This document shows positions 19,867 to 64,000 of a stretch of 64,000 bases of DNA, piece after piece. Under the pieces are notes generated by a model, which was not told where the DNA came from, searched no databases, and saw nothing but the letters and a program-made list of their open reading frames with translations. This DNA comes from an uncultured Rhodospirillaceae bacterium (GTDB lineage Bacteria > Pseudomonadota > Alphaproteobacteria > UBA8366): positions 20,930-84,929 of the forward strand of contig CAJWLM010000013.1 in NCBI GenBank assembly GCA_913043025.1. Reading direction: 5' to 3'. A program made the position numbers and the translations under genes. Numbering within the stretch: position 1 is the first letter of the stretch; the number at the start of each line of letters is the position of its first letter.

Positions 19867-20100
19867 AAAATGTAGCCCCTTCATCCGAAAGTAAAGTCTA
19901 CGTTACGTCTATATCTTTTCCTCATAGTGTTATTTAAAATCCAAAGTGTGACACGCATCAATTACTTGGTTCACTCTGCAAAATACAATTTCTTCTGATA
20001 AGATATCTTCCCGTGTTGAGAACTTTCAGTTATTTTTGCGTTGCTCACTAAAGAGAAAGTGTACTGCATATTTTTTGAAAGATTTTCGACAGGCTTATTT

Positions 20101-20955
20101 ATGACGACAATCAATCCAATACAAAATGACTTTATAGCGCAAATCAATGGTGTTGACCTTGCCGGGCCGATCGGAGAAAAAACATTTGTCAAAATTCAAA
20201 TGGCATTACATGAATTCGGAGTAATCTATTTTCCAAAACAAAAATTAACACCATCAGCACTATCTTCATTCACCAAACTCTGGGGAAAGCCAGACGTTCA
20301 CCACCTTGCTGAGCATTCATTCCCTGAACACCCTGAGGTACGGGTACTTTCTAACGTAAAGAAAGACGGCAAGCCGGTTGGCGCATTCAGAGGCGGTAAC
20401 TTTTGGCATTCGGACCTTTCCTATTTGCAGAAGACCGGCTACGTAACGCTGCTTTATGGAGTCGAGTGTCCACCCGAAGGAGGCGATACTCTATTTGCAG
20501 ACATGCGTCGCTTATATGAAAGCCTTCCAAATTGTATCCGAATACAGATTGAGGGTAAAATGGCTGTGCATGATCGCAATTACCGCTATTCAGCTCTCTA
20601 TCCCGAGCGTCCGCCATTAACAAAATCTCAATTGGCAAGCGTACCACCGGTGGAACACCCCGCTGTGATTACACACCCAGTAACGGAGAAAAAATCAGTA
20701 TTTCTTTATAAGGAAATAATTCGAACCATTGGCGAACTAGATCAGGAAACCACTTGGTCACTGATGGAAGAGATTGAGAGCCTTTTAGTAGATAGTGACG
20801 ATTTCGTTTATCGCCACGGGTGGAGTCCTGGCGACCTTGTAATATGGGACAATAGGTGCACTCTTCATTCAGCCACGCCCTACGATTCAGAAAAATTTCG
20901 TCGCGTTCTTTACCGAACACAAGTGAGTGGTGAATCGCCAGCTTACGTTGCTTAA
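20101..20955 (+). CDS. TauD/TfdA-family 2-oxoglutarate dioxygenase (copy 1 of 3)
   Basis: The 284-residue protein has the TauD fold. NFWHSDLSYLQKTG contains the H-x-D iron motif, CTLHSATPYD the distal His, and FRRVLYRTQVSG the Arg that binds 2-oxoglutarate. VTLLYGVECPPEGGDTLFADM is also typical. Family members hydroxylate small acids such as taurine, 2,4-D and other carboxylates or sulfonates at the carbon next to the leaving group. The start is the ATG at 20101; the ORF-track extension upstream is non-conserved. It is the first gene of a tight four-gene operon with a cupin, a bicupin and a crotonase, spaced 26-39 bp apart, each with a strong RBS. The substrate is unknown. Confidence 0.88.
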   Translation: MTTINPIQNDFIAQINGVDLAGPIGEKTFVKIQMALHEFGVIYFPKQKLTPSALSSFTKLWGKPDVHHLAEHSFPEHPEVRVLSNVKKDGKPVGAFRGGNFWHSDLSYLQKTGYVTLLYGVECPPEGGDTLFADMRRLYESLPNCIRIQIEGKMAVHDRNYRYSALYPERPPLTKSQLASVPPVEHPAVITHPVTEKKSVFLYKEIIRTIGELDQETTWSLMEEIESLLVDSDDFVYRHGWSPGDLVIWDNRCTLHSATPYDSEKFRRVLYRTQVSGESPAYVA

Positions 20956-20994
20956 AGCAATTGCTGAAATAAAAATTTCAAAGGAGGGAATTCA

Positions 20995-21489
20995 GTGTCA
21001 AAAAAATATTCGACTTATAACGATGGCAAGATTCAATATGTTTACAAAATGGATGCGCTTAACATGCAACCAGACAACACAACAAGCGCAAATATCCAAC
21101 CTAAAAAACGATTATCTGGAAAATCTTCCTCATTTGGTGGAGCGCTATTCGGCGAAAAAGTGATTGTTGGATATATTCATAAGGCTGCCGGGACCGGTTC
21201 TAAACGTCATACTCATCCAAACGAACAGTATAATTTTGTACTTCAGGGCACACTTCAGTGTGACATTGATGACCAAACGGTACTCTGCCCTAAAGGCCAT
21301 TGCGTCCACATTCCAGCGGGGACAGAGCATAGCTGCATGGCTACCCCTGAAGAAGACGTAATATTCTTCGTAGCTAAAGACACCCGCCACGGCATTTCTG
21401 GGCCGGCGGTAGATGGTATTGAAGATGGCCCGCGCATGCATCCCGATGCTAAAGATGGTCAAGAGAAACTCAGCGAAAAACCAATCTAA
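20995..21489 (+). CDS. Cupin-domain protein
   Basis: The 164-residue single-cupin protein starts at a GTG with AAGGAGGG at good spacing. The first cupin motif is KRHTHPNEQYNFVLQG (two His and the Glu of the metal site), and the second motif contains HIPAGTEHSCMA with the last His. The metal site therefore looks complete, allowing dioxygenase, isomerase or lyase chemistry, but cupin function cannot be read from the motif alone. A long charged tail after residue 140 (MHPDAKDGQEKLSEKP) is extra. It is second in the TauD-cupin-bicupin-crotonase operon. Confidence 0.85.
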   Translation: MSKKYSTYNDGKIQYVYKMDALNMQPDNTTSANIQPKKRLSGKSSSFGGALFGEKVIVGYIHKAAGTGSKRHTHPNEQYNFVLQGTLQCDIDDQTVLCPKGHCVHIPAGTEHSCMATPEEDVIFFVAKDTRHGISGPAVDGIEDGPRMHPDAKDGQEKLSEKPI

Positions 21490-21515
21490 AGAGGTGTAAC
21501 TGCAAGGAAACCGTA

Positions 21516-22313
21516 ATGCCTTATTATCGTTTCGAAAATATGGAGCAGCTTCGAACCAATCCACATCTGTCATCAGGTAAGGGAGCAGTGGTAAACGGCA
21601 AGTTCCTGACGCTGCGTAATAACAACAAAGATGCGGGCACTGGATCGCAACTACACTACCACCCTAATGAATTGATGATCTATCCGATCTCGGGTAAAAT
21701 CAACTCCGTGGTTGGGAAAGACCAACGTATTGTTGAAGCAGGCACATTCGTGCATGTGCCGCCAAACGCTCGCCATTCGATGAAAGCTTGCGAGGACGGG
21801 CCAATCAGTTATCTTTATTGTAAGGATAACACTTGGACGTTGGCTGGAATTGCAGCAGATGAGGCGCCGCCTGATGAGGCGCCAAGCATTGATGAGCTTA
21901 CGGCAAAACATGATGCAGGTATTTATCCCGGTAAAGAGAAAATGCCCGAAGCATCGGAAGCCGTGGTAGAGGGCCTCAACAACTGTTTTTATCAACTCAG
22001 TGAAGGCCCAGACGCACCAACCCAATCAACCCGTGCAATCAAAATAATTGAAGGCCACCGCATCAATTTTGTGCTTGTAGATTCTCCTGATGGAAGGGTA
22101 GAAAAAATGAACGCCGCTCCTCATGAGCGTTTCTTGTATATTATTAGCGGTGCAGCGGACTCAGAAATAGAAGGTGAAAAGAAATCTGTTAGAAGTGGAG
22201 ACCTTCTGCACGTTCCAAAAGGTTCGTCATATAGTCTTATGACCAAAGTTGGGCCAACGCGTTATTGCTATTTTGAGTCTACAGACTTCCTTGAGGCTCA
22301 GATCAAAGAATAA
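21516..22313 (+). CDS. Bicupin protein
   Basis: The 265-residue protein has two cupin barrels. The first (residues about 20-115) has LHYHPNELMIYPISG and VPPNARHSM, keeping the metal-binding H-x-H...E...H set. The second (about 170-260) has HERFLYIISGAADSEIEG and HVPKGSSYSLM, in which most metal ligands are lost. This is the common pattern of one active and one structural barrel. The linker contains a short tandem repeat, DEAPPDEAPSIDE. AAGGA precedes the ATG. The first barrel resembles that of the upstream cupin (H-x-H-P-N-E in both), so the two may be related by duplication. Confidence 0.83.
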   Translation: MPYYRFENMEQLRTNPHLSSGKGAVVNGKFLTLRNNNKDAGTGSQLHYHPNELMIYPISGKINSVVGKDQRIVEAGTFVHVPPNARHSMKACEDGPISYLYCKDNTWTLAGIAADEAPPDEAPSIDELTAKHDAGIYPGKEKMPEASEAVVEGLNNCFYQLSEGPDAPTQSTRAIKIIEGHRINFVLVDSPDGRVEKMNAAPHERFLYIISGAADSEIEGEKKSVRSGDLLHVPKGSSYSLMTKVGPTRYCYFESTDFLEAQIKE

Positions 22314-22340
22314 ATATATAAAAACTTAACGGAGGGAAAA

Positions 22341-23138
22341 ATGGATTTTAAAGATATAAAATATGAAGTGAAACGTCCTCACGTTGCAACAATTACTCTC
22401 AACAAACCAGAGATTAATAATGCAACTACCGGCGATAGTTTTGTGGAGATCATGACCGCATTTCATGAAGCAGACTCAGACACATCAATCGGTGTTGTCG
22501 TGTTAACTGGAGCAGGAGATACCCATTTCAATGAGGGGGGGCAAGTTAAACAGCATTTGACCAAGCGTCCGGGGACACATCGCACACATTTTCGGAAATT
22601 GCTCGGAGCGGCGCAGGCTATTCGCGGGTGTGGTAAACCAGTTATTGCTGCGGTTAATGGCCGTGCTATCGGCAGTGGCAATCAATTACAAATGCTTTGT
22701 GACCTTGCTATAGCTTCCGACCAAGCAATTCTGGGACAACACGGATCAAAGCGTGCCGGAGCTCCTATGTTTTGGGGAACCACATTGATGTCGCATTTCG
22801 TTGGCGAGAGGAAGGCACGTGAAATAATATTCTTATCACGTGAATATTCGGCACAAGAGGCATTGGAAATGGGCCTAGTGAATAAAGTTGTACCCCATAA
22901 TGAGCTCTACAATGAGGTCGACCGTTGGTGCGATGAGGTACTCGATCAAAGCCCCACTTCCCTTCGCATTCTTAAAACTTCAATGAACCTGAAGCATGAC
23001 ATGCAATATCCCGCGTTATTTCATGCTCGCGACATGATCGACCTCTTTTCTGATGCACCGGAACGGATGGAGGGCACGGCAGCATGGGTTGAAGGACGCA
23101 AACCTGACTTTAACAAGTTTCGGACCAAGACCAATTAG
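22341..23138 (+). CDS. Enoyl-CoA hydratase/isomerase (crotonase) family, MenB/BadI-like
   Basis: The 265-residue crotonase has the two oxyanion-hole regions (GAGDTHFNEGG and NGRAIGSGNQLQMLCDLAIASD). The stretch GQHGSKRAGAPMFWGTTLMSHFVGERKAREIIFLSREYSAQEALEMGLVNKVVP closely follows the pattern of MenB (dihydroxynaphthoyl-CoA synthase) and BadI (2-ketocyclohexanecarboxyl-CoA ring hydrolase). A Dieckmann-type condensation or, more likely in a catabolic operon, a ring-opening or retro-Claisen cleavage of a CoA ester is suggested. No men genes are near. GGAGGG precedes the ATG. It is the last gene of the TauD-cupin-bicupin operon. Confidence 0.85.
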   Translation: MDFKDIKYEVKRPHVATITLNKPEINNATTGDSFVEIMTAFHEADSDTSIGVVVLTGAGDTHFNEGGQVKQHLTKRPGTHRTHFRKLLGAAQAIRGCGKPVIAAVNGRAIGSGNQLQMLCDLAIASDQAILGQHGSKRAGAPMFWGTTLMSHFVGERKAREIIFLSREYSAQEALEMGLVNKVVPHNELYNEVDRWCDEVLDQSPTSLRILKTSMNLKHDMQYPALFHARDMIDLFSDAPERMEGTAAWVEGRKPDFNKFRTKTN

Positions 23139-24657: not shown

Positions 24658-26679
24658 TTGAAATATCGAACGGTAAGGACTGAAGAGTTGGCTAACAAAA
24701 ATAGAAACACACTATTTCGTTTTGCCGTCATTGCTGATACTCATATTACAGAAAAAGATGCGCCCGCAATTGATGGTTATGATCAAGAGACCGTGCAATT
24801 GAGCGTTAAACGACTAGCCCATATCGTTCACAAGCTTAAGCAACTTTCCCCCGACTTTGTTATCCATCTGGGCGACATAACGCATCCAAGACCAGACCAC
24901 CCTGCCTATAATGACTCTGCTAAGGCTTTTTATGAGGTTTTTAATAATGTAGGTTGCCCCGTTTATCTCGTTGCCGGCAATCATGATATTGGACAAAAAC
25001 ATTATTCAGGAGTCCCCATTCATCCTGCGATGTCACAAGGCTTCGTAAATAATAAAATGATCGCCGCCTATGAAGAACAATTCCAGAGGCATTTTTTTTC
25101 ATTTGAACACGAAAGCTGTTTATTTGTAGTCATCAATGGGATGATTCTTAATTCAGGACTGGATTACGAGAAAAAGCAACGTGAGTGGCTAGAAACTCTG
25201 CTGGCCAGAAATTCAGGAAGGCGCTTATTTGTATTTTCACACTACCCACTTTACCTCTCCGAGGCAGATGAGAGCGTTAACTTTGACAATACCGATTTGC
25301 CTGGGCGTAGGTGGCTTCTCGATTTATTTTCTGATTATAAAGTAGAAGCTTTTTTTTCCGGCCATGTGCACAATTTTTTCTTTAACAACTACGACGAAAC
25401 CAGCATCTATGTTTTACCTTCAACTTGTTTTTTACGTCACGATTACCACGAATTGTTTCGAGCCGCTCCAACAGAGCTCAAACAGGGTCGGCATGACACA
25501 GCAAAGCTAGGTTTTGCCGTAGTAGAGATTAATAAGGCTGGACATCTTACGCATATAGTACGGTCTGAAGGCCGGACTATGGGGTCTTCTGATAATGAGA
25601 CCTTGCTACCGCCTGCACACGGCCTGTCGCCTGCTCACGGAGCTCTCGGCATATCACTACATCAACCGTGGTGTGAGAAAGCCAATATCACCACACCATG
25701 GGGTCTAGACTCTTTCAGCACAAAATATGTCCGTAATGATTACCCTCTTTTGGCTCTGTGGGAAATGGGCATAAGCGAACTACGGGTACCCCTTGATGAC
25801 CTAATGAAAAAACATACGCGTAGCCGCATTCGCGAACTAGCTGCTCGCGGCCATCAGTTTACTGCTTATTCTTATGGCTTGCCGAAAAACGAGGGCCGAA
25901 ATGTCTTAAGCGAGTGTGGCGAAATTTTACATGCATGGGAGCTCATCATGCCAACTTGCTGCGTTAGCGATTTGTTACCGGAAATAAAAAAAATTGCGCG
26001 TAAGGTACCGGTTTTTTTCAACTCTTATCGTCAACACAGAGAAACCCTGAGCCTCAGCCATGGGTTTAGCGTAGATGATTTCAATTTGGTAAACGAGCTG
26101 ATGGCACTTGACGGCGCAAAAGAAGTCTTCAGCGGCGTTGTGTTTGGCGTAGGCCCAAAAGAATCCCCAATAAAGGCTTTAAGTAAAATTCAGAAATATT
26201 CTATCAATTTTAATATTCAAACAGCAGCCCATATGCAATTTTCTCAGCGCGAACCATTAAGCTCGAAGCAATTTGAGAACACCGGACATGAACGTATCGT
26301 TGAAGCAACAATCGCGGCTTTAGGTCACAGAGAAATATGTGTCTTTGTCGATAATTTTATTGGAATAGATCGCGGATATTTTTTCTGTGAAGGCCTAGTC
26401 GACCGCCTTTACAACCCACTGACCGGAGCTCGCATAATCAAAACGCTCCATAGCGCACTTCCAAAGGGCTGTCGAATTGGAAAGGAATTTATCGAGGAAA
26501 ATTCCCGGTTAATCCAGTTTCACGAGCCAGATGGTGTAGTTATAATGTCAAGAACGGATACCTATCCATTAGAAATACCAGCCACGCTGGTGCCACTTAA
26601 ACAAGGAATGTGGGTTGATCTATCAACAGGAAATAAAGCGGGAAGCCCGCTTCTCGGCCCAACACTCGTTGTTAAATGA
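24658..26679 (+). CDS. Calcineurin-like metallophosphoesterase fused to an unrecognised C-terminal domain
   Basis: The 673-residue protein has an N-terminal metallophosphoesterase domain (about 20-265) with every core motif: AVIADTHI, VIHLGDITH, YLVAGNHDIG, FVFSHYPLY and FFSGHVHNF. After a linker with a PAHG repeat near residue 322 comes a roughly 340-residue C-terminal half that I do not recognise. It begins GALGISLHQPWCEKANITTPWG. Alternating hydrophobic strands and helices (LALWEMGISELRVPLDD, ARGHQFTAYSYG, ICVFVDNFIG) suggest a TIM-barrel-like fold, which is inference. It follows a GDPD gene by 45 bp, so phosphodiester or phospholipid head-group turnover is plausible. The start is a TTG; another TTG at 24688 has AAGGA upstream and may be the true one. 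Confidence 0.8.
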   Translation: MKYRTVRTEELANKNRNTLFRFAVIADTHITEKDAPAIDGYDQETVQLSVKRLAHIVHKLKQLSPDFVIHLGDITHPRPDHPAYNDSAKAFYEVFNNVGCPVYLVAGNHDIGQKHYSGVPIHPAMSQGFVNNKMIAAYEEQFQRHFFSFEHESCLFVVINGMILNSGLDYEKKQREWLETLLARNSGRRLFVFSHYPLYLSEADESVNFDNTDLPGRRWLLDLFSDYKVEAFFSGHVHNFFFNNYDETSIYVLPSTCFLRHDYHELFRAAPTELKQGRHDTAKLGFAVVEINKAGHLTHIVRSEGRTMGSSDNETLLPPAHGLSPAHGALGISLHQPWCEKANITTPWGLDSFSTKYVRNDYPLLALWEMGISELRVPLDDLMKKHTRSRIRELAARGHQFTAYSYGLPKNEGRNVLSECGEILHAWELIMPTCCVSDLLPEIKKIARKVPVFFNSYRQHRETLSLSHGFSVDDFNLVNELMALDGAKEVFSGVVFGVGPKESPIKALSKIQKYSINFNIQTAAHMQFSQREPLSSKQFENTGHERIVEATIAALGHREICVFVDNFIGIDRGYFFCEGLVDRLYNPLTGARIIKTLHSALPKGCRIGKEFIEENSRLIQFHEPDGVVIMSRTDTYPLEIPATLVPLKQGMWVDLSTGNKAGSPLLGPTLVVK

Positions 26680-32284: not shown

Positions 32285-33166
32285 CTAAACAGCCAATGAA
32301 GGCCGAGAACCACGGATCGTGGTGCGATGCATCCGACGACGGGCATTTTTTTCATCAAATGGCAGAGCCTTATGCAAAACGCTTCGATTATCCCATATGA
32401 TGACATCGCCTGGCGTCCACCGATGTACATATTCAAATTTAGCCTGACTTGCAAAATCAATCAGCTCATAAATTATTTTTTGGCTTTCCGCATCTTCCAT
32501 GCCTTCGAAAGAGCGAACAAAAACAGCGGACAAATAAAGTGCTTTACGACCCGTTTCGGGATGACTAATCACTGCAGGATGCGATAATGGCGGTGTGGAT
32601 GCCTTTTGCTCATCAGTCAGGGGAGGGCGGTCATTGTGATGATTCTCAAAGTTCCATACATAGTCATGCACTCCCATTCTTTTGAGAAGCCACTGTTTGC
32701 GCTCCTCAGGCAACGCTTCATAAACTGCAAACATACTTGTGAAGCAAGTTTCGCCCTCGCCCTCGGGACATTCAAGGCAATGGAAGATAGAACCTAGACT
32801 TGGCTCTTTCATATACGACAGGTCAGAGTGGTACCGTTTCGACCCCCCGAATGCACCAACATGCTTGCCGTTTTCAATTATGTTTGAAACAACAAATATT
32901 TCTGGATGACCTGGGAGACAATAATTACTTAAAACGTGGTTTTCTAACGGACCGAACCGCTTGGAAAATTCAATGTGTTCGTCTGGCGACCAATTCTGAT
33001 CACGAAATATCAGAACGCTACGATCGTACAACTCTTTCTGAATTTGTTTAAAAACTAATTCAGACAACGGATTGGCGAGATCAATCCCTGACACCTCAGA
33101 TCCTATGTGCTGAGTAGCAGGTGTAAATGTGACCTCTTCATTAAAAACTTTTTTAGCAACTTCCAT
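32285..33166 (-). CDS. TauD/TfdA-family 2-oxoglutarate dioxygenase (copy 2 of 3)
   Basis: The 293-residue TauD-fold protein has SKRYHSDLSYMKEPSLG (H-x-D), RSVLHKALPFD (distal His) and RRRMHRTTIRG (2OG Arg). It aligns well with copy 1 in the central VLSNYCLPGHPEIFVVSNIIENGKHVGAFGG region. GGGAGG is upstream of the ATG, and the gene follows the aconitase X small subunit by 11 bp. Coupling of a hydroxylase to a dehydratase of the aconitase X type suggests that it makes the hydroxylated substrate, but this is inference. The substrate is unknown. Confidence 0.88.
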   Translation of the reverse strand: MEVAKKVFNEEVTFTPATQHIGSEVSGIDLANPLSELVFKQIQKELYDRSVLIFRDQNWSPDEHIEFSKRFGPLENHVLSNYCLPGHPEIFVVSNIIENGKHVGAFGGSKRYHSDLSYMKEPSLGSIFHCLECPEGEGETCFTSMFAVYEALPEERKQWLLKRMGVHDYVWNFENHHNDRPPLTDEQKASTPPLSHPAVISHPETGRKALYLSAVFVRSFEGMEDAESQKIIYELIDFASQAKFEYVHRWTPGDVIIWDNRSVLHKALPFDEKNARRRMHRTTIRGSRPSLAV

Positions 33167-43499: not shown

Positions 43500-44246
43500 A
43501 TGCTCTTTGAACAACCATGGATTATAATTGGTGTTGTTATTGCCATGATGGTTGGTGGATTTTGCAAGGGAGCCTCCGGAATTAGTCTCGCTCTGGTTTC
43601 GGTTTCTCTAGCAGCAATTTTTGTTGATATCTCAACAGCAGTAGCACTGATGACAGTTCCGGTACTGATTGCCAATATATGGCAGGTAAGCAGCAATGCT
43701 TTTGTAGTCGAGACCTGGCGAGAATATAGGCCCCTATATGTAGCCATACTTCCAGGGGTTGCTTTTGGAGCAAAAGTACTGACTTCAGTGGACCCTACCC
43801 TAATTTCCGGTATTGTCGGAGTGTTGGTAGTAGCCTTCGCATTTCTTATCTACAACCAGCCAGATTGGCACCTTAACCCGAGAACCGCTCGACGCATTAG
43901 AATACCAGTCGGGCTTACCGGAGGCGTCATCGCCGGAATATCCGGACTTGTACCTCCTGTTCTTATTTACATGGTAGCACTCAAGTTGCCTAAAGAACGC
44001 TTCATCTGTGCTGTTGGTATTGGCTATTTAACAGCTGTGTTGGCTTTGATTTTTTTCCTCTCCAGTTACAAATTTTTGACATTGCAGTTGTTATTTTGGT
44101 CTGCTGTCGCGTCGATACCAATGTTTGTAGGCCAACTTGTGGGCCAGGGTGTTCGACGTTATATGGACGATTCGCTTTTCCGTATGATCATACTTATTCT
44201 TATGATTTTTAGTGGCGCTAACCTTATTCGAAAAGCATTCTATTGA
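43500..44246 (+). CDS. Sulfite exporter TauE/SafE family membrane protein
   Basis: The roughly 248-residue integral membrane protein has about eight hydrophobic segments. The two family repeats are seen in VGGFCKGASGISLALVSVSLAAIFVDISTAVALMTVPVLIANIWQ and GLTGGVIAGISGLVPPVLIYMVALKLPKE. Members export sulfite, sulfoacetate or other small organic anions. Start choice is open between the GTG at 43482 and the ATG at 43500; the ATG is used because GGA lies upstream at usable distance. It converges with a TauD gene, with a 7-bp overlap of the 3' ends, so a sulfonate link is possible. Confidence 0.83.
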   Translation: MLFEQPWIIIGVVIAMMVGGFCKGASGISLALVSVSLAAIFVDISTAVALMTVPVLIANIWQVSSNAFVVETWREYRPLYVAILPGVAFGAKVLTSVDPTLISGIVGVLVVAFAFLIYNQPDWHLNPRTARRIRIPVGLTGGVIAGISGLVPPVLIYMVALKLPKERFICAVGIGYLTAVLALIFFLSSYKFLTLQLLFWSAVASIPMFVGQLVGQGVRRYMDDSLFRMIILILMIFSGANLIRKAFY

Positions 44247-45088
44247 ATCAGCTCATCATCTTTAATCTGAGTCCGGTGCATAATACGCCGCTGATTTTCG
44301 TCGAAGCTATCACGCCTGTGCATAGCACAACGATTATCCCACATTATCACGTCACCTACTCGCCATTGATGGTGCCAAGCATATTTTGGCTGTGTAGCAT
44401 GAGCCCACAGCTCATCAAGCAATGCCTCCGAATTTGCTAGAGTCAGACCCATTATATATGCATTCCGACGCCGGCCGAGATAAAGCGCCTGGCGTCCAGT
44501 TTCCGGATGGGTGCGAACAATAGGATGGATGGCGCCGGGGCAAGCGGTAACATCGGTTACCGCATCTGCCCCCTTACGAAGGAGGCCAGCACTATTAGTG
44601 GAGCTATCGTGCTTGATTTGACCGCCGTTTATCTGCCGACGGAGCAAATCTGGCAACTCTTCCAAAGCACCGTACATATTACAAAACCCAGTATCACCAC
44701 CCTGATCGGGGACCTCAACACCAAGCAAAACACTCCCTAAGGGGGGCTGATCGATATAATTCATATCTGTATGCCACTGCGCCTCGCCGTTGCCAAGAGC
44801 GCCTATAGGCCGGCCATTTTCTTTGACATTTGACAGCACAAGCACTTCTGGAAAACCGTCAACACCTACCTGCCCGTTTTCGTTTGGCGGTGCGATATCA
44901 AGGTCACCGAAGTGCTTACTAAATATAACCAACTCTCTGGCAGTAATTTCCTGATCGCGAAACAACAACACACAATGGGAAATCCACGATTGGTGTATTT
45001 GGTCAAGAGTATTTGTATCTATATAGCCAAGGTTAACACCGCGTATTTCAGCGCCTATAGCTTCCGAAACTGGCACTACATCAATCAT
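44240..45088 (-). CDS. TauD/TfdA-family 2-oxoglutarate dioxygenase (copy 3 of 3)
   Basis: The roughly 282-residue TauD-fold protein has GEAQWHTDMNYIDQPPLG (H-x-D), CAMHRRDSFDENQRRIMHRTQIKD (distal His and 2OG Arg) and GSVLLGVEVPDQGGDTGFCNMYGALEELP. The insertion around TNSAGLLRKGADAVTDVTACPGAIHPIVRTHPETGRQALYLGRR distinguishes it from copies 1 and 2. I set the start at the ATG at 45088, overlapping the VOC-gene stop by 8 bp (ATGATTGA); the ORF-track start lies further inside that gene. It forms a two-gene unit with the VOC protein. The substrate is unknown, with a sulfonate or carboxylate being possible. Confidence 0.88.
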   Translation of the reverse strand: MIDVVPVSEAIGAEIRGVNLGYIDTNTLDQIHQSWISHCVLLFRDQEITARELVIFSKHFGDLDIAPPNENGQVGVDGFPEVLVLSNVKENGRPIGALGNGEAQWHTDMNYIDQPPLGSVLLGVEVPDQGGDTGFCNMYGALEELPDLLRRQINGGQIKHDSSTNSAGLLRKGADAVTDVTACPGAIHPIVRTHPETGRQALYLGRRRNAYIMGLTLANSEALLDELWAHATQPKYAWHHQWRVGDVIMWDNRCAMHRRDSFDENQRRIMHRTQIKDDELIQ

Positions 45089-45464
45089 AATTTGATATCT
45101 CAACTAAATTACCGTCCGGATCGCGAAAATAAATCGAAGTGATTGTCCCAACAGCTCCAGAACGCTTATCAGGACCTAGCTCAATGCGTACACCTTCAGA
45201 CTTCAAATGTTGGGCCACATCTGCAATTGAATCTTTGGTTATGAGACAGAAATCCGGCCCACCAATAGCCGGTTTGCGGGCGCGATGACTAGGGCCAGAA
45301 CCGATAGGCGGATGCACGTTAATCTTCTGACTACCAAAATAAAGTGCTTTCCGCCCTTCCCCAAATGTCTTCACTGTCATACCAAGCACGCGCTCGTAAA
45401 AGTCACAGATAGTATCCACATTTCTTACGGTTAGGACGAAATGATCTATATTATTTATCTCCAT
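45081..45464 (-). CDS. VOC (glyoxalase/bleomycin resistance) family protein
   Basis: The 127-residue protein has two beta-alpha-beta-beta-beta units typical of vicinal oxygen chelate proteins. NIDHFVLTVRNVDTICDFYERVLGM gives the first metal His, DFCLITKDSIADVAQHLKSEGV the second half, and IYFRDPDGNLVEISNY the C-terminal Glu ligand. This group (YaeR/glyoxalase-like) is small and functionally diverse. Translation is coupled to the downstream TauD dioxygenase by an 8-bp overlap, so it may act on the same metabolite, for example as a lyase or isomerase. Confidence 0.88.
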   Translation of the reverse strand: MEINNIDHFVLTVRNVDTICDFYERVLGMTVKTFGEGRKALYFGSQKINVHPPIGSGPSHRARKPAIGGPDFCLITKDSIADVAQHLKSEGVRIELGPDKRSGAVGTITSIYFRDPDGNLVEISNYD

Positions 45465-47580: not shown

Positions 47581-47609
47581 TTGACACAGAAGGGCGTCCG
47601 CCATACCGT
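47581..47609 (+). promoter_or_regulatory. Candidate sigma-70 promoter upstream of the SAM-II riboswitch
   Basis: A perfect TTGACA (47581-47586) and TACCGT (47604-47609, weak -10) are separated by exactly 17 bases. The predicted transcription start falls a few bases before the riboswitch at 47616, as expected for a leader RNA. Confidence 0.5.
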
Positions 47610-47615
47610 ATTTTC

Positions 47616-47677
47616 TAGTGGTGATTTGGCCCGACCGGCTTGCGACCACGCAAATTATTCAGCTAAAAGGTCGGCGT
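47616..47677 (+). promoter_or_regulatory. SAM-II riboswitch (metA motif) controlling metZ
   Basis: The sequence AGTGGTGATTTGGCCC..GGCTTGCGACCACG..CAAATTATTCAGCTAAAAGGTCGG follows the SAM-II consensus. Stem P1 is GTGGT (47618-47622) with ACCAC (47645-47649). The conserved GATTT and GCTTGC lie inside the loop, and the A-rich strand leads to AGCTAAAAGG. The diagnostic H-type pseudoknot pairs CCGACC (47631-47636) with GGTCGG (47669-47674) perfectly. In this class, SAM binding stabilises the pseudoknot and represses downstream methionine-synthesis genes in alphaproteobacteria. It sits about 90 bases before the metZ ATG. Confidence 0.88.
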
Positions 47678-47767
47678 GTCTTCTTAAAAAGGCTCTGACC
47701 ATTTAGCAGGGCATTTATTTTTTAGGATCTCCTGCGTTTAAGTGAGTTCCCTCTGAAGGAGTGTGAC

Positions 47768-63737: not shown

Positions 63738-63854
63738 AGCAACACTCCCAACGAACGTTTTTTCACCGCTAACGCCATTTTTCTCACCCCGATTCGCCAA
63801 ATTTGGCCACGTGGCTTATGCCCGTACACCCCGCCGAGCAGACCTGCGATAGCG

Positions 63855-64000
63855 CGTCAACGGCAGGTATACTGGCTCACGGGTCATCGCCCACATCCTG
63901 CCTTCCCAGGTTTCCCCAGTGGCGTATGGTGGATGGGGCTCTCCGCCTACAGTTGCGGGGGCAGCCACGGCTTTGATCTTCTAATAGAGATATGGAAGAC
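63855..64000 (-). promoter_or_regulatory. Cobalamin (B12) riboswitch, 5' part cut by window edge
   Basis: Read on the minus strand the segment contains GTGGCTGCCCCCGCAACTGT, then GCCACTGG, then CCTGGGAAGGCAGG, then GATGACCCGTGAGCCAGTATACCTGCC. These are the conserved cores of the adenosylcobalamin riboswitch in order, ending in the B12 box (63862-63877 on the plus strand as GGCAGGTATACTGGCT). The P1/P3 5' side lies beyond base 64000. About 120 bases of expression platform separate it from hupE, including the perfect palindrome GCCACGTGGC (63806-63815). It should repress the whole hupE-cobUWNOQ run when B12 is plentiful. Confidence 0.95.

Follow-up and report, generated by a model that had tools for sequence, protein, structure and literature searches.

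A conserved TauD, cupin, bicupin and crotonase gene block in Rhodospirillaceae with a possible role in organic-acid catabolism

Four closely spaced genes for a TauD-like oxygenase, a single cupin, a bicupin and a crotonase-fold protein raise the question of whether they form one metabolic unit and, if so, which chemistry such a unit might carry out. They lie in a 64,000-nucleotide stretch of DNA from an uncultured Rhodospirillaceae bacterium, here called the window (Table 1). The original prediction, made from the DNA letters, had envisaged hydroxylation, ring or C-C cleavage and then CoA-ester hydrolysis of a cyclic or branched acid, with BadI as a precedent. Our analysis leads us to read the four genes as a single operon for the catabolism of an anionic organic acid, working in the order TauD, cupins and crotonase, and we put the probability of this reading at about 0.4. 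The enzyme families are familiar, and what we describe is an uncharacterised operon and not a new kind of system; in agreement with the original prediction, no described pathway with this gene set was found in the open-licence literature.

Table 1. Positions of the four-gene block and of other features of the window.
Feature	Position	Strand	Details
TauD/TfdA-family Fe(II)/2-oxoglutarate oxygenase	20101..20955	+	ATG start, 284 aa; PF02668 E 2.7e-54
Single-domain cupin	20995..21489	+	GTG start, 164 aa; Cupin_2 1.5e-12
Bicupin	21516..22313	+	265 aa; Cupin_2 3.9e-19, two stretches
Crotonase-fold protein, MenB/BadI-related group	22341..23138	+	265 aa; ECH_1 (PF00378) 1.3e-55
Calcineurin-like phosphoesterase	24658-26679		673 aa, long extra region
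Second TauD-like gene	32285-33166		
Third TauD-like gene	44240-45103		
SAM-alpha riboswitch	47608-47686		Rfam
Cobalamin riboswitch	63845-64000		Rfam; right end of the window

The predicted arrangement of four co-directional genes with gaps of 26-39 bp was borne out (window 20101-23138, plus strand), the gaps being 39, 26 and 27 bp in gene order; an alternative, longer TTG start of the TauD gene is open at 20041. A strong ribosome-binding site had been proposed for each gene, which holds for the cupin (AAAGGAGGG) and the crotonase (CGGAGGG), both with a clear Shine-Dalgarno sequence, but not for the bicupin, where the site (AAGGA) is moderate, or for TauD, where it is weak. No strong terminator-like site was found between the four genes and, together with the tight same-strand spacing, this argues for an operon, whose genes would probably be transcribed together. 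Rfam found no RNA control element or riboswitch in the region of the operon, and promoter-like sites were not more frequent than in shuffled sequences. Elsewhere in the window, two riboswitches were detected, one for cobalamin and a SAM-alpha riboswitch that precedes a PLP-dependent sulfhydrylase-like gene. No transporter, regulator or acyl-CoA ligase gene lies inside the operon or directly adjoins it, which counts against the operon reading.

Conservation of the gene order in relatives, proposed as a check, was found: the block is whole in five genomes from two genera, TauD stands first in all five, and the gaps in the other genus are 44/12/38 or 44/10/38 bp. The near relatives are Rhodospirillaceae MAGs, one of them from a Tara Red Sea assembly. 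Synteny alone is weak evidence here, since the flanking genes are mostly colinear in the same genomes. The operon reading is helped, however, by the block remaining intact while its neighbours vary: a gamma-glutamyltranspeptidase-like gene is the immediate upstream neighbour in the second genus but not in the first, and the downstream phosphoesterase gene (window 24658-26679; L044 12273-13980) appears as several ORFs in one sister genome and is absent from other relatives. The within-genus dN/dS values are 0.153 (TauD), 0.049 (cupin), 0.143 (bicupin) and 0.019 (crotonase), and none of the 11 local genes measured falls below the crotonase. Between the genera, the crotonase is 94% identical, the cupin 90%, the bicupin 76% and TauD about 60%, and seven flanking genes range from 46 to 81%. 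The crotonase is thus a working, tightly constrained protein, and the block is more than chance, since each of its four genes is under purifying selection and it is preserved across two genera. No crotonase ortholog was found outside these genera, either in the family's other genera or in 399 sampled phylum genomes, where the best matches are 43-46% identical; these searches cover genome samples, and the one wide contig scan detects close relatives only.

The first enzyme is a TauD/TfdA-family Fe(II)/2-oxoglutarate oxygenase in which the predicted H-x-D...H and Arg are intact (H103-S-D105, H256 and R267-R-V-L-Y-R272, or RRVLYR). This complete set is common to the TauD, TfdA and RdpA oxygenases, but the protein scores below half the taurine dioxygenase cut-off (NF007104, 144.5 bits vs 313), and that assignment was rejected. 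Its nearest solved relative is the aryloxypropionate dioxygenase RdpA (6d1o, 1.7e-36), and the oxidative action of the nearest solved relatives on aryloxyalkanoic acids is a point in favour of the operon reading. The 3.08 Mb host genome has 34 TauD-like matches (E<=1e-25), and same-family relatives have 13-76 per genome; three such genes lie in the window. TauD genes of the genus g225, 46% identical to the operon TauD, adjoin neither a cupin nor a related crotonase. The faster evolution of TauD relative to its partners could mean that each genus has adapted it to a substrate of its own, or that its presence is incidental. Comparable oxygenase family expansions in SAR202 bacteria have been tied to recalcitrant dissolved organic matter (PMC6946804), and a similar link of the TauD expansion here would be speculative.

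Metal motifs had been predicted in both cupin proteins. The single cupin carries H72-T-H74-P-N-E77-Q78 and H112, and its putative metal ligands H72, H74, Q78 and H112, a three-His/one-Gln set that fits the HxH ... E/Q ... H pattern of metal-dependent cupins, are invariant in 11 relatives. The prediction also holds for the N-terminal domain of the bicupin (H47-Y-H49-P-N-E52-L53 and H87), with H47, H49 and H87 invariant among 11 aligned relatives, but not for its C-terminal cupin domain, in which the alignment revealed no HxH or other metal motif. The N-terminal domain offers three His and E52, with a Leu at the canonical Glu position, where the single cupin has Gln; this Leu at the position of the fourth ligand leaves a three-His metal site possible, as judged from the residues. 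Cupin iron sites with three His include diketone and thiol dioxygenases (PMC4019311), and the bicupin might carry out chemistry of this type. The proposed structure prediction gave a bicupin of two beta-barrels (AlphaFold, pLDDT 81.6), for which Foldseek returned many different PDB bicupins (E 1e-14 to 1e-11, 11-18% identity), and the matches of both proteins were generic cupins that gave no functional lead. The model of the single cupin has a pLDDT of 62 and is poor towards its two termini. The bicupin shares its two-barrel fold with oxalate decarboxylase, quercetinase, ureidoglycine aminohydrolase and AerE/BacB, yet differs from these known bicupins in its low identity, its one metal motif and the Leu at the fourth canonical ligand. 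Its assignment as (S)-ureidoglycine aminohydrolase was rejected, with 36.7 bits against a TIGR03214 cut-off of 200 and the UglyAH cut-offs not approached. In another contig (L011 1-819), a cupin relative is fused in frame to a long, histone H1-like, Lys/Ala/Thr-rich (KKKATKRK) N-terminal tail at the contig end; the cupin matches in L011 and L012 both sit at contig ends and add little.

A clearer indication of what the cupins do comes from other loci. With a cupin threshold of E<=1e-18, 8 of the 44 genomes examined from the order have both the cupin and the bicupin, and none has only one of the two (Fisher 5.6e-9 by genome and 3.3e-4 by genus, phylogeny uncorrected), and at six other loci in six genomes they lie 1.7-6.5 kb apart. 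These six loci contain, in varying sets, TctA/TctC (tripartite tricarboxylate) or CitMHS/Na_sulph_symp transporters, IclR regulators, a GarL/HpaI-like aldolase, and Gfo/Idh, 2-hydroxyacid or 3-hydroxyisobutyrate-type dehydrogenases, and one cupin-paralog cluster (L081) also contains a TauD gene. The pairing is imperfect: one genome has the two genes on different contigs, and in two genomes the cupin, but not the bicupin, has a second copy. The other cupin-pair clusters are without a crotonase of the operon type, a further point against the operon reading, and a search of the cupin and bicupin against plasmids gave no match. The recurrence with carboxylate transporters, IclR, aldolase and dehydrogenases nevertheless supports a catabolic reading and is the strongest argument for a role of the cupins in the catabolism of organic acids; to this extent the chemistry first proposed is upheld, but its BadI-specific step is not. 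We also observed a large cluster (L006, L064 and L065) with two complete TctABC-like systems, a DctP-type binding protein, IclR, a sulfatase and the cupin pair, to which a CobW-type GTPase and an amidohydrolase are added in L064 and L065.

The crotonase is a member of the MenB/BadI-related group of its superfamily, apart from the enoyl-CoA hydratases, as had been predicted: in the tree it shares a clade with MenB and BadI-like sequences (support 99/99) but branches outside the clade of MenB and BadI themselves (support 100/99). The GERKAREI stretch on which the prediction had relied is present, but it is common to the MenB/BadI-like group and is therefore not diagnostic of BadI. E. coli MenB is the best PDB match (4els/3t88, 3.6e-57, full length, same fold), and the KAREI helix and the equivalent of Gly156 are kept; however, FCSGGD of MenB is FNEGGQ in the crotonase, and Ser161, Asp163 and Tyr258 of MenB align with G140, P142 and S237. 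In MenB, Asp163 is catalytically essential, Ser161 hydrogen-bonds the ligand and Tyr258 lies in the active site (PMC3637252). An identity as MenB was rejected on these missing residues and on the failed cut-offs (TIGR01929, 220.2 bits vs 342.7; PRK07396, 232.6 bits vs 380). BadI, the 2-ketocyclohexanecarboxyl-CoA hydrolase, is matched over the full length and belongs to the same supported wider clade, but with 220.9 bits against a cut-off of 467.6 (TIGR03210); moreover, the BadI-like sequences L031/L032, taken from other genomes, retain Ser, Asp and Tyr in the alignment, as do the MenB-like L029/L030/L033/L034, also from other genomes. The crotonase belongs to a branch of its own, in which the catalytic residues typical of its closest known relatives have been lost, and H134, E65, Q68 and H71 are candidate catalytic residues, chosen from the sequence, for an acyl-CoA chemistry that it may still perform. 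No benzoyl-CoA-pathway genes were seen among the window ORFs. At another locus of the same genome (L042 4647-8405, G000:C5), away from the operon, genes for two CoA-transferase subunits (IpdA/IpdB-like) and a CaiB-like gene lie next to a second crotonase of the MenB/BadI-like type, a context that recalls ring opening by EchA20/IpdAB.

How the operon might work then depends on which of several readings the evidence fits. In the predicted scheme, hydroxylation and cupin ring or C-C cleavage would come first, and a cyclic keto acyl-CoA would then be opened by hydrolysis of the BadI type. The wider clade of the crotonase includes C-C bond-making and bond-breaking enzymes, and the steroid ring opener EchA20 is likewise a MenB-related crotonase that clusters with MenB, so that ring opening has a precedent among such enzymes (PMC5380842) and may still apply to this one. 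Yet a crotonase outside the MenB and BadI clade, with less than half the score set for BadI (221 bits vs 468) and without the three residues, gives no ground to assume the BadI-type reaction, and we consider this scheme improbable. The same loss of residues, with a bicupin C-terminal domain that has no metal ligands, would also suit crotonase-fold and cupin proteins that are non-catalytic and act as scaffold, binding or regulatory proteins; the very low dN/dS and the invariant metal-ligand positions favour catalysis, and make such a role highly improbable.

Other readings concern the membership and the direction of the pathway. The functional unit could be the cupin, the bicupin and the crotonase, with TauD, which belongs to a large family and evolves faster, using the same promoter but having another or broader role. 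The lower identity of TauD between genera and its 34 counterparts in the genome speak for this and against the operon reading, whereas its first place in five of five genomes and the TauD gene in L081 speak for its inclusion, and on balance we hold the exclusion of TauD to be unlikely. A small biosynthetic or tailoring operon, comprising an oxygenase, cupin isomerases and a CoA enzyme, might be suspected from BacB and AerE of antibiotic/peptide biosynthesis among the structural matches of the bicupin, and from the pentalenolactone synthase PtlD and ScoE among the TauD relatives; but relatives of the cupin pair are found with genes for acid transporters, IclR and an aldolase, the ORFs of the window showed no assembly-line or export genes, and we hold biosynthesis to be very unlikely.

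In the catabolic operon that we tentatively prefer, the TauD-family enzyme would oxidise the free acid with O2 and 2-oxoglutarate, the cupin and bicupin, as paired metal enzymes, would isomerise or oxidatively cleave the oxidised product, and the crotonase would convert the resulting acyl-CoA, with the thioester held in the oxyanion hole and active-site residues unlike those of MenB and BadI. Beyond the family level, this chemistry is what we infer, and the lack of recognised catalytic residues in the crotonase weighs against it. A bolder and doubtful extension is that the crotonase founds a new subfamily, performing an acyl-CoA reaction through such different residues, downstream of a cupin pair, the bicupin of three-His type and the single cupin of His/Gln type, that cleaves what TauD produces; this would be a new route by which a marine organic acid is degraded.

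Marine alphaproteobacteria of this family carry many TauD-like genes, and for one of them an operon that is conserved and whose partner enzymes are defined offers a small entry point open to testing. The crotonase, strongly constrained yet lacking the standard residues, is a promising place to look for a new CoA reaction.
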